In this document: positions 26,183 to 35,139 of the stretch, one piece after another
Layout: every line of letters begins with the position of its first letter
How positions within the stretch are numbered: position 1 is the stretch's first letter
Virus record (IMG/VR): IMGVR_UViG_3300038701_002510
Coordinates: 1 to 36,516 of that record
Reading direction: 5' to 3' (one strand)
DNA: 36,516 bases
Source: a virus
Program-made: the position numbers and the translations under genes
The notes under the pieces: generated by a model
What the model saw: only the letters and a program-made list of their open reading frames with translations
Told to the model about the DNA's origin: nothing
The model's database searches: none

Positions 26183-26971
26183 TTACATTATCCAGTTATC
26201 CACTTTATTAGGATAATAGCCTGATTCAATTTTTTCTTTAACCATTGAGATTTTAAAGTCACTTCTAAAGTTGTGACCTATTTTTCGCTCTACTTCAATA
26301 TATTTCTCCAAGAGTTGGGGGTTATGTCGGCCCGCAATAACCAAAGCATCTAAAGGGCTGAAAATGCAAAACATACAAGATAGTCTAGGCATGCCTAAAT
26401 CATAAGCTTTATGGTAAGGGAGTTTATTTGATTTAATTACACTCCAGACCTTTTTCAAATTCCAATTATGGATGGGCAACCAATCATATACCTCTCTGCT
26501 CTTTGTGGTCAATCTTATATTTTTTAAAAAAGGAGATTTTTTTGACCTAAATGGACTCTCCTCTTTTCTAAAACCAAACACATATAACAATCGAGATTTT
26601 TTCATCTCTTTGGTCAAAGCAGTTACTACCCTGGCTCCTGGGCCTCTTTTAAAGTCACTTGTGCAATATCTCTGCTTATTTGACGGCCATTTGCCTCTGC
26701 GTTCAACATACTCCAACAAATCCTCTTCATATCCGTTTTGGTTTCTTCTTTTTGAATAGTAGGTTTTAAGACCAAATAAATTAGCTTGCTCCATAACTAG
26801 CTCTTTGGTTCCTTCCCATTCCATTTCTCCTAAATCTTGATGTGAAACAACAATTTTATTCAATGGAAAATCCTGAATTTTAGCTTGTCTGCAAACCTCC
26901 CACAAAGCGCATAATGAATCCTTGCCGCCACTTGAGTTAACAATTATCAAATCAAAATGAGATAATCTCAT
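26183..26971 (-). CDS. PAPS reductase-like (PP-loop) protein
   Basis: 262 aa. The PP-loop signature SGGKDS is at residues 14-19, the DLGEMEW substrate-side segment at about 46-52, and KQRYCTSDFKRGP near 100-111. Two close cysteines (SCMFC) occur near residue 205. This places it in the phosphoadenosine phosphosulfate reductase-like family of ATP-dependent adenylating enzymes, which includes DndC-like sulfur-transfer proteins and many phage proteins of unknown substrate. Assimilatory sulfate reduction is unlikely for a phage; modification of a nucleobase or DNA backbone is a better guess. It lies near the DUF4406 and ASCH-like genes. Confidence 0.8.
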   Translation of the reverse strand: MRLSHFDLIIVNSSGGKDSLCALWEVCRQAKIQDFPLNKIVVSHQDLGEMEWEGTKELVMEQANLFGLKTYYSKRRNQNGYEEDLLEYVERRGKWPSNKQRYCTSDFKRGPGARVVTALTKEMKKSRLLYVFGFRKEESPFRSKKSPFLKNIRLTTKSREVYDWLPIHNWNLKKVWSVIKSNKLPYHKAYDLGMPRLSCMFCIFSPLDALVIAGRHNPQLLEKYIEVERKIGHNFRSDFKISMVKEKIESGYYPNKVDNWIM

Positions 26972-28970: not shown

Positions 28971-29258
28971 CTATCCTTTTAACTTTTCAGTTGAGAACTG
29001 ATAACACAACCTATTAGCAATGTGATTAAATCCAAGATTATCAGTATCTGTGTCTCCAGTGAATTTTGCATAAACATAACTAGGAACCAAAGTGGCTAAG
29101 GCATGCACAAAAAGTGTCATGTTATCATCTACTGATAATTCCTCTATTCCTATAAAACTTTCACAATCCTCATCATTAAGGATTGGATCAATTTGTGTCA
29201 ATATCTTCATTTGATATTGAAGTAGTTTTTCCTGCTTTTCTGATAACTGTTGTGGCAT
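28971..29258 (-). CDS. Hypothetical early protein, 95 aa
   Basis: Helical N-terminus (MPQQLSEKQEKLLQYQMKIL) then an acidic segment (DEDCESFIGIEELSVDDN) and a hydrophobic helix (MTLFVHALATLVPSYVYAKF). No family recognised. It is the first protein gene downstream of the tRNA-like element and its hairpin terminator-like sequence (29287-29308), so its expression may depend on read-through. Confidence 0.6.
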   Translation of the reverse strand: MPQQLSEKQEKLLQYQMKILTQIDPILNDEDCESFIGIEELSVDDNMTLFVHALATLVPSYVYAKFTGDTDTDNLGFNHIANRLCYQFSTEKLKG

Positions 29259-29286
29259 AATTTTAATTTTGAGTTAATAATCATTT

Positions 29287-29308
29287 AAAAATGCCTGTCT
29301 TTCCAGGC
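29287..29308 (-). terminator. Hairpin with T-run downstream of the tRNA-like element
   Basis: Read leftward the transcript forms GCCTG-GAAAGA-CAGGC followed by ATTTTT, a short intrinsic-terminator-like structure within the first copy of the 20-bp direct repeat. It lies about 60 nt after the tRNA-like 3' end and 29 nt before the 95-aa gene. The stem is only 5 bp, so it may terminate part of the transcription or serve in RNA processing. Confidence 0.45.
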
Positions 29309-29313
29309 TGTCA
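29294..29313. repeat. 20-bp direct repeat, copy 1
   Basis: CCTGTCTTTCCAGGCTGTCA occurs here and again, identical, at 29481-29500. The two copies flank the tRNA-like element. Each copy has internal symmetry (CCTG/CAGG) able to form a small hairpin. Confidence 0.9.
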
Positions 29314-29366
29314 GGCTTCCTATCTTTGGGGCCTTGCCATCAGACACCCTTCTTGTATATGGTTGG

Positions 29367-29472
29367 AAAGCGGGCAGGATTCGAACCTGCGCAACCAACT
29401 GGCCTTTTATAAGTGGTTCCTAGTGTAGAGCGACTACACAACCATAATGCTTGCCTATCGCATCACCGCTCT
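29367..29472 (-). tRNA. tRNA-like element with extended anticodon arm
   Basis: 106 nt on the minus strand. Acceptor AGAGCGG (29472-29466) pairs with CCGCTTT (29373-29367; one G-T). A D-arm follows (ATGC/GCAT with loop GATAGGCAA, including GG). The T-arm is canonical: GCAGG, TTCGAAT, CCTGC. Between D- and T-arms is an extended anticodon-type stem: TGGTT pairs with AACCA, and inside it GTGTA/TACAC closes the 7-nt loop GTCGCTC, with a 4-nt bulge (TAGG). If this loop is the anticodon loop, the anticodon reads CGC (Ala), but position 37 is T, not a purine. A further 23 nt, able to form CCAgtTGG, act as a long variable region. The encoded 3' end reads CC then A after the stem with no standard discriminator. 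It may be a degenerate tRNA or a tRNA mimic. It lies between two identical 20-bp repeats and is oriented with the early operon. Confidence 0.5.
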
Positions 29473-29480
29473 CATTTTTT

Positions 29481-29500
29481 CCTGTCTTTCCAGGCTGTCA
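29481..29500. repeat. 20-bp direct repeat, copy 2
   Basis: Second exact copy of CCTGTCTTTCCAGGCTGTCA, 187 bp from the first and 8 bp upstream of the tRNA-like 5' end. On the early-transcript strand it precedes an A-run rather than a T-run, so unlike copy 1 it cannot terminate leftward transcription. The stop codon of a possible 50-aa ORF overlaps it. Confidence 0.9.
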
Positions 29501-29650
29501 TTCTTTCCCAATCTTGGCAGTTAAATTGTTGCCCAGTGTGCTACCGTTTATCCTTTGAGCATCTATAATCCGTATCAAGATCAAGGGGTGCATCAAAGGC
29601 ATCAAGAAAAGGCATATACCCCGAAGAAATCCGTATCGGCTAATGTTCAC
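29498..29650 (-). CDS. Possible 50-aa membrane peptide with GTG start
   Basis: An open frame from GTG at 29650 encodes (M)NISRYGFLRGICLFLMPLM then HPLILIRII, a hydrophobic stretch, followed by a polar tail ending TAKIGKE. It begins 9 bp after the stop of the 54-aa gene and its stop overlaps the second 20-bp repeat. No ATG start exists and no family is recognised, so it may be non-coding leader of the tRNA-like element. Confidence 0.3.
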   Translation of the reverse strand: MNISRYGFLRGICLFLMPLMHPLILIRIIDAQRINGSTLGNNLTAKIGKE

Positions 29651-29659
29651 ACTGCCCCT

Positions 29660-29824
29660 CTATTGTACCAGCACGAAGGTTCTAATAGGGGAAAGAACCC
29701 GCTGCCACTTGGCACCGCTTGCCAGTCGTTTTGCCTCTAGGGCCTTTGCCTTTTCCAATACCCCCAAAGCCTGTTTTCTAAGCTTCTTAGGATTGTTCTC
29801 AACTTGTATGGTGTTTTCGTTCAT
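29660..29824 (-). CDS. Hypothetical 54-aa basic protein
   Basis: MNENTIQVENNPKKLRKQAL followed by VLEKAKALEAKRLASGAKW; a basic, helical small protein. The ATG lies in an ATGA overlap with the stop of the 55-aa gene, which supports translation. It is the last clear protein gene before the non-coding tRNA-like segment. Not recognised. Confidence 0.6.
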   Translation of the reverse strand: MNENTIQVENNPKKLRKQALGVLEKAKALEAKRLASGAKWQRVLSPIRTFVLVQ

Positions 29825-29990: not shown

Positions 29991-30632
29991 TCAGAGTGAG
30001 CTGAATTGCAATATGATGTCCTTGTACTTTCCGTTTTCATCCTTTTTGTACGCACGGGCATACAAGCTGGTGCCAACAACCCTCTGACAATCTTCGAGTT
30101 TATCAAACTCAGCTATCAGCGCATCATCACCAAGCTTTTTTACCTGCTGCCTTGCCTTGGCCAATAATTTTGGGTCATAGTCTCCTTTGGTGTTCTTCAT
30201 AAGAATACCATCAAGAATCTGATAAAATCCTTGGTTTCTGTTGGCAAACTTTTCCCTAAAGATGTCCTTGATGGCATTGATGTGCACAATGGCCTCATCA
30301 GTGAAGGTGAAACGCTCTTGCCTGTCCACCGTGACCTTTAGGCCCAAAGTGTCATCTTTCAATGTAAAGCTCTTTGTGTCCTTGGGTTCCTTGCCCTCTA
30401 CCTCGTACATGCGCTCATACAACTTATTGGCCTCAAGGATGGTAAATTGCTTTAGCTCTGCCAGTTCCCTGTTAAGGTGCTCAAACTTGCTTACTGAGTG
30501 CGTAAGGAAGCTTTTTTTGTCGCTTTCAAAATCGGTCTTGGCCTTTCTTGCAGCTGCCATTTCAGCCTGCTCCCTCTTTTTTAGCTCAGCGGCCAAATCC
30601 TCTTTGCTCAGGGTGCTTAAATCTAAACTCAT
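29991..30632 (-). CDS. DUF3164 family protein
   Basis: 213 aa. A coiled N-terminal half (Lys/Glu/Ala-rich, about 1-80) is followed by LGLKVTVDRQERFTFTDEAI, then IKDIFREKFANRNQGFYQIL and a Lys-rich stretch KLLAKARQQVKKLGDDALIA, and ends with YKDIILQFSSL. This order matches the DUF3164 proteins encoded in early regions of Mu-like phages, of unknown biochemical role. It overlaps the 53-aa gene by ATGA and precedes a 55-aa gene by 2 bp. Confidence 0.8.
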   Translation of the reverse strand: MSLDLSTLSKEDLAAELKKREQAEMAAARKAKTDFESDKKSFLTHSVSKFEHLNRELAELKQFTILEANKLYERMYEVEGKEPKDTKSFTLKDDTLGLKVTVDRQERFTFTDEAIVHINAIKDIFREKFANRNQGFYQILDGILMKNTKGDYDPKLLAKARQQVKKLGDDALIAEFDKLEDCQRVVGTSLYARAYKKDENGKYKDIILQFSSL

Positions 30633-32927: not shown

Positions 32928-34931
32928 TTACATTAGATCATAAATAGATTCGTCGCCATTTTGGGTGGTATTGCTTAGGTCTTTCTGGATTTGGGCTATG
33001 TCTTTTGATGGCTTGCTGGCCTTTCTATTTTTCTTCTCGATGCCTTTAAGTGGTGCAGGATTCAATCCGTAATCTTCTGGCCTTCTACTGAATTTTTCCA
33101 TGATTTCATCCATCTGGTCACGTCTTGTCAATCGGTTCTCCTTAACCTTGCTGGCAATTTTGCTGTAGTATTCTGCCTCCCAGTTTTCCTGCTCTTGGAT
33201 GTTCCTTGCCGTCTGTAGTTTTGTCCTGGCCTCTGTCACGAATCTTAGGCCCTGTCCAGGCACTTTTTCATAGAGGTAAACCAAGGTCAAATCCTCTGGG
33301 TCATACTTGATGTAAAATTTTCGGTCTATGTTGTTGTTCAAGAAATCGAGATCGGGCAAGTGGTCATCATTATAGACCATGTAGGTGTGTTTGGTCTTTC
33401 TTTCGGTAAATGTGAGCCCATAGGCTGTTAGTCTGACTGGCTTTGGTCTCTCCATCCAGAAAATGTCAACCATCTGGAACATATCAAGCTCTGGAGCTTT
33501 AGGGTTCTTACTATCCAGGTACATATCAATCCTTGGACGGTTGGTATCATAATGATTGGACTGGTTCCACTGCTCCCTGCACTCCTTATAGGCCTCAATA
33601 GCTTCTTTTAAGCTTGGCAGGTTCTCAGTATTGGCAAGTATAAACTCCATATTTGCCTTGCTTTCGGCCTTTTTGGTGTCGATGTTCTGACCTGTGAAGT
33701 ACCATAGCTTTTTCATTACCTGCTGCTGAAACCGTCCAAAGGCACTCTCAATGGTCTTTGATTTACCATTGTATGGCTGGGTCTTTATGGCCAAATGGGT
33801 CAATTTGTCCATGAATTGGCCAGCTTTGAGCTTCTTATGGCCTCCCTGGTTGTCAAAACGCACCTCATAAGGTCTGTGACCGCTGGTATTGACAGCCATT
33901 TTAAATGCCTTGTACTGGGCTTCATAGTTTTCCGTCTGACTGACATGGAAACCAAGAAATACCTCACTAAAGGCATCCATGACCTCATATACATTACAGG
34001 TTGCCATCTTACCGCTCTCATCCTTGAAGTACAGATTGAGCTTGGTACCATCTGCGTACCAGAGACTGTCACGCATGGTCGGCATTTTGGTACTGTTCTG
34101 AAATTGATACTTTTCCTTGGCCTTGAGCTCTCCATATCGGTAACCGTACCAAAGGCTCTTGACCTCTGGTTGATATAGGTAGTTGTAAAGTGTTTTGGAT
34201 TCCTTGATGACCTTATGGCCTTTATCTCTGGCGTATTCATTGTACTCATCGAGCAGCTGCTCCAAACTGGCCACCTTTTTAACCTGGTCACACCATCTGG
34301 CCATTACCCAAAGTTTGGCCCCCTCGCTCATTTTTTCACTGTTCTTGTGTCCGTGGCCACGGTGCACCAACGCCTCATATCCTTCTTTTGTGTAAGCCCT
34401 GTATTTACGTCTCAAGCTTCTTGGATTCTTGGGCAGACCATGAGGCCATTGTATTCTTGGAAGCTCCTGAACAACTTGAGCAATACTCTCCCATGTTTTG
34501 GCAACACCACCACTGCCCAGGGCAGCTGTTTTTAGTATTCTGTTTTCAAGAATATCCTTGGTAGCATTAAATATGCTTGCCTCTGATACATACCTGTGCC
34601 TGACATCGTTTGCAATATGTTTGCCATTGGGCAGTATGTAGTTGGAGTAAAATTTTTCGGCTTTGTAGTCTTTATTGAGGTGGTCTGCAAATAAAATATT
34701 GTTGTTCATCCTGGTTGGGTCGCCATACTTATCAATAATCTGTTGTTGGTAATGTGGATGGATGCTTTCCCAAGCAATCAATGCAGGAGTGTTTTTGCCA
34801 CGTCCGTTTCTCAATACTTTGAAGGGGCCTCTTTTTATGTAACTATCATAACTGTGCTTGCTGAACAACTGGGCATCTTTGTAGAGCCAGCCGCCATGCA
34901 CACAAATGGTATTTTCAAAGACCTCGAACAT
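32928..34931 (-). CDS. MuA-like DDE transposase
   Basis: 667 aa from the ATG at 34931 (MFEVFENTICVHGGWLYKDA), chosen because it starts 7 bp after the Ner-like stop; the upstream ATG at 34994 would overlap that gene by 56 bp. The catalytic core shows Asp near residue 292 (WYADGTKLNLYF), Asp near 359 (VRFDNQGG) and Glu near 394 (KTIESAFGRFQQ), with the usual spacing of a DDE enzyme. The N-terminal part contains HTH-type DNA-binding regions (CHGL PKNPRSLRRKYR segment) and the C-terminus is Lys-rich and disordered like the MuB/ClpX-contact tail of MuA. It carries out strand transfer for integration and replicative transposition, and likely binds the repeated sites near both window ends. Confidence 0.9.
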   Translation of the reverse strand: MFEVFENTICVHGGWLYKDAQLFSKHSYDSYIKRGPFKVLRNGRGKNTPALIAWESIHPHYQQQIIDKYGDPTRMNNNILFADHLNKDYKAEKFYSNYILPNGKHIANDVRHRYVSEASIFNATKDILENRILKTAALGSGGVAKTWESIAQVVQELPRIQWPHGLPKNPRSLRRKYRAYTKEGYEALVHRGHGHKNSEKMSEGAKLWVMARWCDQVKKVASLEQLLDEYNEYARDKGHKVIKESKTLYNYLYQPEVKSLWYGYRYGELKAKEKYQFQNSTKMPTMRDSLWYADGTKLNLYFKDESGKMATCNVYEVMDAFSEVFLGFHVSQTENYEAQYKAFKMAVNTSGHRPYEVRFDNQGGHKKLKAGQFMDKLTHLAIKTQPYNGKSKTIESAFGRFQQQVMKKLWYFTGQNIDTKKAESKANMEFILANTENLPSLKEAIEAYKECREQWNQSNHYDTNRPRIDMYLDSKNPKAPELDMFQMVDIFWMERPKPVRLTAYGLTFTERKTKHTYMVYNDDHLPDLDFLNNNIDRKFYIKYDPEDLTLVYLYEKVPGQGLRFVTEARTKLQTARNIQEQENWEAEYYSKIASKVKENRLTRRDQMDEIMEKFSRRPEDYGLNPAPLKGIEKKNRKASKPSKDIAQIQKDLSNTTQNGDESIYDLM

Positions 34932-34938
34932 ATCAGAC

Positions 34939-35139
34939 TTATTTTGCGGTTTCAACAGGTTTGCCTTCCAGGACTTCAACAATCCCAATGGCATCTTTGT
35001 ATATCGCTTTGGCCTTATCCGTGTTGGTTGACTTTACACCGTGCAGAACCTCAGATACATAAGATTGGCTGGTGCCGTGTTTTTCGGCAAGTGCAGTCTT
35101 ATTGATTTTTCGGATTTGCTCTTTTGTAAGAATGGCCAT
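34939..35139 (-). CDS. Ner/Cro-like HTH regulator
   Basis: 66 aa from the ATG at 35139 (MAILTKEQIRKINKTALAEK); an earlier ATG at 35244 would cross the operator and is unlikely. A Cro/C1-type HTH spans about residues 12-45 (TALAEKHGTSQSYVSEVLHG). First gene of the leftward early operon, it occupies the place of Mu ner, which lowers early and repressor transcription after lytic entry. It likely binds the inverted repeat and promoter at 35168-35211. It ends 7 bp before the transposase start. Confidence 0.75.
   Translation of the reverse strand: MAILTKEQIRKINKTALAEKHGTSQSYVSEVLHGVKSTNTDKAKAIYKDAIGIVEVLEGKPVETAK

Follow-up and report, generated by a model that had tools for sequence, protein, structure and literature searches.

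In bacteriophage T4, two small stable RNAs, species 1 RNA (rnaC) and species 2 RNA (rnaD), are encoded within the tRNA cluster; rnaC is 139 nt long and possesses a T-arm (CCGGG-TTCGAAT-CCCGG), but is not annotated as a tRNA. Phage HK022 carries the known put antiterminator RNAs. GOLLD and ROOL are non-coding RNAs of phages and prophages that are found near tRNA islands and whose function is unknown, and GOLLD can contain tRNAs (PMC12286853). The HDV-like theta ribozymes are small conserved RNA elements whose distance from phage tRNAs is fixed (PMC10879173).

The RNA investigated here is encoded in a stretch of viral DNA of 36,516 nt (the window), corresponding to IMG/VR virus record IMGVR_UViG_3300038701_002510. 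It shares an acceptor, a D-arm and a T-arm with ordinary phage tRNA genes, but differs from them in having an extended bulged stem in place of the anticodon arm, in its length of 106 nt, in lacking CCA and in not being called by ARAGORN or Rfam. Its T-arm resembles that of T4 rnaC, for which no homology is claimed, and unlike rnaC it does not lie in a tRNA cluster. The hairpin that accompanies it (UGACA/GARAGA) was not found in the T4 tRNA region, including rnaC and rnaD, nor was the UGRCR/GARAGA motif found in the HK022 genome. GOLLD and ROOL are much larger and have a conserved fold of their own, and neither the window nor any of the 17 loci searched matched their Rfam covariance models. The same was true of the Rfam models for HDV-type ribozymes; theta ribozymes have an HDV-like fold with a cleavage site within 5 nt of the tRNA, whereas the element described here is a single hairpin 5′ of a tRNA or tRNA-like RNA. 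The RNA matched no known family in the tests made.

The genes of the window include those for a Mu-type transposase, a MuB-like ATPase, a DUF3164 protein, and portal and head proteins (Table 1), and the transposase match bears out the view of the initial annotation that this is a transposable, Mu-like phage. The early region also contains a gene of the PAPS reductase family (phrog_424; window positions 26183–26971, minus strand). A non-coding gap of 401 nt on the minus strand, between a 54-aa ORF ending at 29660 and the 95-aa ORF starting at 29258, contains hairpin A, the tRNA-like RNA and hairpin B, in that order. The fold of the non-coding stretch 5′ of hairpin A was no better than that of shuffled sequences (z = −0.43).

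Table 1. Positions of the features of the window and of the E. coli prophage loci
Feature	Position	Strand	Sequence	Basis and remarks
Mu-type transposase	32928..34994	-		phrog_310 match, indicating a transposable phage
DUF3164 gene	29991..30632	-		Early operon, upstream of the non-coding gap; anchor of the search for related phages
Non-coding stretch 5′ of hairpin A	29501..29659	-	GGCAGT/ACTGCC or CAGTGTG/CACACTG	Candidate closing helix
Hairpin A	29481..29500	-	TGACA-GCCTG-GAAAGA-CAGG	Inner 4 bp kept; G.A with 29480 in place of the outer pair
tRNA-like RNA (106 nt)	29367..29472	-		Constrained and free folds; acceptor, D-arm, extended arm, variable region, T-arm
Acceptor, 5′ strand	29466..29472	-	AGAGCGG	Sequence
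D-arm	29445..29465	-	TGATGC-GATAGGCAA-GCATTA	Fold; GG kept in the loop, could contact the T-loop
Extended bulged arm replacing anticodon arm	29414..29444	-	TGGTT, GTGTAG-TCGCT-CTACAC, TAGG bulge, AACCA	Fold
T-arm	29374..29390	-	GCAGG-TTCGAAT-CCTGC	Sequence; canonical
Acceptor, 3′ strand	29367..29373	-	CCGCTTT	Sequence; followed by CCAACCA, correctly placed CCA absent
Hairpin B	29292..29313	-	TGACA-GCCTG-GAAAGA-CAGGC-A	T-run next; 33 nt further on, the 95-aa ORF begins
95-aa ORF	28971..29258	-		Directly 3′ of the gap; weak phrog_37916 match, function unknown
E. coli prophage loci	L456:4384-5375; L465-L469	Opposite to portal/terminase		Non-coding, mosaic between strains

The initial annotation had described a 7-bp acceptor, a D-arm and a canonical T-arm with TTCGAAT, and all three were confirmed on the minus strand. 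Folding likewise upheld the extended, bulged anticodon region, the long variable region (23 nt) and the total length that it had given. The acceptor includes one G-U pair, and in the folds the extended arm was formed by TGGTT and GTGTAG pairing with AACCA and CTACAC, respectively (5 + 6 bp, bulged, with a 5-nt loop). A 112-nt stretch covering the tRNA-like RNA had a minimum free energy of −37.6 kcal/mol (z = −2.4), and four of 200 shuffled sequences were equally stable. The combination of a T-arm with a 7-bp acceptor occurred once in the whole window, compared with 0.11 expected (11 instances in 100 mononucleotide shuffles). ARAGORN made no tRNA call here, and Rfam detected no family in the window at the gathering threshold, RF00005 included, with sub-threshold matches at chance level by E-value. 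The RNA has the 7-bp acceptor and the 5-bp T-arm with a TTCRANN loop that are expected of a tRNA, and the folds gave no 5-bp anticodon stem with a 7-nt loop directly after the D-arm. A G32-C38 pair shrinks the ‘anticodon’ loop to 5 nt and position 37 would be a U, indicating that the RNA has no normal decoding anticodon.

The two identical 20-bp repeats reported to bracket the tRNA-like RNA were also confirmed (187 nt apart; 0 expected by chance), and were found in addition to be RNA hairpins themselves. They are placed asymmetrically, hairpin A lying 7 nt (29479–29473) 5′ of the acceptor and hairpin B 53 nt beyond the 3′ end of the tRNA-like RNA. Copy B matched the family pattern (UGRCR, 5-bp stem, GARAGA, pairing strand and A) in full, and in copy A the outer pair was broken and followed by A; the spacing after hairpin A falls within the 3–12 nt that is typical of family members with a tRNA-like RNA downstream. 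Only copy B resembled an intrinsic terminator, in which a T-run comes after a G+C hairpin; copy A and many other copies in the family had no T-run. The terminator-like hairpin that the initial annotation had listed as a separate feature is in fact copy B (29308–29293), one of the two repeats. When phage records were searched at the DNA level with the RNA of the window, a single match of 42 nt was obtained, in Pseudanabaena phage Pan5, where it spanned hairpin B together with its flank.

The reverse complement of the repeat, TGACAGCCTGGAAAGACAGG, was found exactly in at least 119 IMG/VR stretches, and each of 50 other phage records contained one copy. The 20-mers were therefore rejected as the ends of an inserted element, and the earlier suggestion of a decayed tRNA carried by an insertion fails on the same evidence, the hairpin being single and without a partner in each of these records.

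At least 246 non-redundant viral loci were found to possess the hairpin. Covariation was scanned with the stem pairs left free, such that unpaired combinations were equally allowed. One stem pair was Watson–Crick at all 123 sites and the next at 132 of 133, the exception being a G-U pair; when four stem pairs were freed, 73 of 106 sites were fully paired, compared with an expectation of about 2 %. With the loop freed, GAAAGA or GAGAGA was recovered in 74 of 76 cases, and freeing the 5′ flank (n = 70) gave T in 58, G in 66, A/G in 67, C in 66 and A in 57, corresponding to UGRCR. These counts indicate a hairpin that acts as RNA, with the motif UGRCR-N4-G-GARAGA-C-N4′-A, of which the two repeats of the window are copies. 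The position of the hairpins is mainly non-coding, with 58 of 235 lying within an ORF of at least 100 aa, compared with 77 % of random positions.

In 257 Gb of genomes the exact 21-mer occurred 19 times, in several phyla, and the record titles included Xenorhabdus, Nitrosospira, Marinobacter, Sphingobacterium, Chryseobacterium, Thermosynechococcus, Clostridiales and Rhodopirellula, among others. The free-stem pattern was at control level in 396 genomes of one phylum, where only three of 13 sites were paired, indicating that the motif is mainly one of phages and prophages. Rfam 15 does not contain it; its letters were found in none of 5.39 million open papers, outside of which they could occur, and literature searches otherwise returned no description of the hairpin. 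Hundreds of unrelated phages have in common a hairpin motif that is apparently so far uncatalogued.

The hairpins were associated with tRNAs. All 107 ARAGORN tRNAs detected within 800 nt of the 246 non-redundant hairpins shared the strand of the hairpin, and T-arms within 600 nt were found upstream (92) and downstream (97) of hairpins, with none in shuffled sequences. A tRNA or tRNA-like RNA closed by an acceptor began 3–12 nt after the hairpin at 42 loci (mode 4–5 nt), compared with one locus at a control offset of 60–72 nt, and base 73 was A in 27 of these 42. A further 77 T-arms with a 7-bp acceptor were detected outside the ARAGORN calls. The distance from acceptor to T-stem is about 48–50 nt in a tRNA with a short variable arm, and was at least 70 nt in approximately 47 of these 77; the RNA of the window, with 7 nt between hairpin and acceptor and 82 nt between acceptor and T-stem, is typical of this extended group. 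Extended tRNA-like RNAs of 94–150 nt recur directly after the hairpin (e.g. L233, L251, L274, L287, L299 and L373), and the order of hairpin, gap of 3–8 nt and extended tRNA-like RNA was seen in many unrelated phages. A non-decoding, tRNA-shaped RNA that is kept on purpose is the best reading of the locus, and to this extent the interpretation of the initial annotation is supported. The extended tRNA-like RNAs of L287, L051 and L373 have a common insert, AAATGTGGAAC...CACTAACAGCAA, in place of the anticodon arm. At L119:7390-7975 (minus strand), ARAGORN reported a tmRNA with the tag VLNQPTGRKALKKFKKILQEMAKKA near non-standard tRNA calls, which is possibly false.

At about four-fifths of the loci the hairpin was followed immediately by other stems or by an ORF, and no tRNA-like RNA started there, so that the hairpin is not a processing signal for tRNAs only. 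A long helix started right after the hairpin at about 44 of 234 loci (score ≥ 30), compared with two in shuffled sequences, and often consisted of ACCACACG-CA-TGGCGATTG paired with CAGTCGCCA-GC-CGTGTGGT. Long helices closing directly before the hairpin were not enriched over shuffled sequences, and short local hairpins in that position showed a mild enrichment (96 vs 50). Many loci possessed additional copies of the hairpin within 800 nt. In a 322-kb contig (L242:4203-4512) the TGACA hairpin forms a tandem array with a spacing of 78 nt. The first downstream genes of 86 loci were diverse, with no family represented more than four times, and a defence library run on the neighbouring genes revealed no defence or counter-defence system common to the loci. 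Rfam detected only tRNAs at the gathering threshold in the 17 loci searched, and matches below it were at chance level.

Relatives of the phage were sought through the DUF3164 gene, which gave eight viral loci (50–64 % identity) and eight genomes; the 111-aa neighbour as query gave none. No UGACA hairpin was present in the DUF3164 relatives inspected, and among the relatives found with these two queries there was no sufficiently close carrier of the stems of the tRNA-like RNA. The nearest relatives had either a T-arm element at or near the corresponding place, without the hairpin, or neither. L457 and L458 possess a T-arm with six of seven acceptor pairs at the corresponding place; in L460–L463 there is a small hairpin instead, with a GG bulge and a T-arm containing TTCGAGT. 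Phages of this lineage thus often retain an element resembling the tRNA elbow in this region, whereas its hairpin-linked form is gained and lost. The element of the Flavobacterium-type Mu-like relatives (L460:4551-4660, L461:4830-4900, L462:4840-4910 and L463:4840-4910) is a compact hairpin 5′ of an ATPase-like gene, comprising TCCCR, a GG-containing bulge, CTTACG-TTCGAGT-CGTAAG and GGGA, and resembles a minimal mimic of the tRNA elbow.

Matches of the hairpin type were present in 69 of 5,426 E. coli genomes. In E. coli prophages a non-coding locus of approximately 0.75–1 kb separates the portal and terminase genes and is encoded on the strand opposite to them. It contains a hairpin variant (CCTCG-GAAGAGA-CGAGG), interchangeable stems and a promoter-like sequence, judged by eye, and it is followed by a small ORF that in several cases belongs to the Gp49 family. 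In one strain a 115-nt element (L468:2438-2552) is annotated as a pseudogenic tRNA-Gly.

We consider the chances about even that the window holds one member of a widespread and hitherto unnamed class of modular non-coding RNA in phages, matured via host tRNA processing. Against this reading stand the many loci at which no tRNA-like RNA follows the hairpin directly, the lack of the hairpin in the nearest relatives and the broken outer pair of copy A. Phages would place structured modules between or after the hairpins, namely true tRNAs, extended non-decoding tRNA-like RNAs and other stems, and the transcript would most likely be cut at the tRNA-like RNA by the host tRNA-processing machinery, with RNase P cutting its 5′ end a few nt 3′ of the hairpin and 3′ trimming taking place on the T-arm side. 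The product released would be a stable tRNA mimic, presumably of benefit to the phage, in which elbow and acceptor are kept and decoding is lost. The hairpin would mark the boundary at which the upstream piece of RNA is closed, and is probably bound by a host factor that many bacteria share. The fixed spacing and the same-strand rule are consistent with a joint transcript being processed by the enzymes that mature tRNAs, the hairpin remaining on the upstream piece. A partner that recognizes a specific sequence would account for the near-invariant loop and flank, and a partner from the host is suggested because no neighbouring protein is common to the loci.

The retention of elbow and acceptor alongside a variable anticodon arm, seen in the RNA of the window as well as in the extended tRNA-like RNAs that recur elsewhere, would also be expected of a decoy that sequesters a host factor recognizing these parts (a tRNA-cleaving defence enzyme, RNase P or a modification enzyme), the hairpin merely stabilizing it, and the Flavobacterium-type relatives retain an even smaller element with the GG bulge and the TTCGAGT T-arm. 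However, bait for an anticodon nuclease should retain the anticodon loop, which is precisely what has been lost here, and the invariant hairpin is left unexplained, making a decoy unlikely. The decoy for tRNA-targeting defences put forward by the initial annotation is neither supported nor refuted; the neighbouring genes include no common defence partner. We regard as somewhat more doubtful that the element is part of a larger structured RNA functioning as an assembly, similar in kind to GOLLD or ROOL, with the hairpin as its docking module. Many loci do have stems in arrays, more than one hairpin within 800 nt and modules that can be exchanged, and GOLLD and ROOL are likewise phage RNAs near tRNA islands, GOLLD with the capacity to hold tRNAs (PMC12286853), but Rfam matched neither family, the flanking modules vary from phage to phage and the gap in the window is just 401 nt.

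That the hairpin is a transcription signal (for pausing, antitermination or termination) and the tRNA-like RNA its passenger seems improbable. The hairpin is located between operon genes, the T-run after copy B gives a terminator-like score, and reading by RNA polymerase would account for the wide host range; against this, copy A and many others have no T-run, HK022 with its put RNAs lacks the motif, and a transcription signal would not predict the tight spacing to the starts of tRNAs. A functionless, decayed phage tRNA flanked by a chance duplication is highly improbable: many tRNAs are carried by phages and neither ARAGORN nor Rfam gave this one a tRNA score, but unrelated phages have RNAs of the same architecture and size range at the same spacing, and the hairpins are under strong selection.

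The hairpin offers a means of detecting non-decoding tRNA mimics that are missed by tRNA finders, and it may be relevant to what T4 species 1 RNA and further stable RNAs encoded in phage tRNA clusters do. As E. coli prophages carry examples, its function is testable in laboratory strains. More tentatively, and at somewhat less than an even chance, we propose a phage-wide RNA family in hosts of several phyla, in which a conserved host factor would recognize the hairpin and the hairpin would organize arrays of modules, including non-decoding tRNA mimics, as a common RNA tool to engage host tRNA handling. The near-perfect covariation of the hairpin, which hundreds of phages share although their hosts belong to several phyla, points to a common interaction of phage RNA with some conserved component of bacteria.
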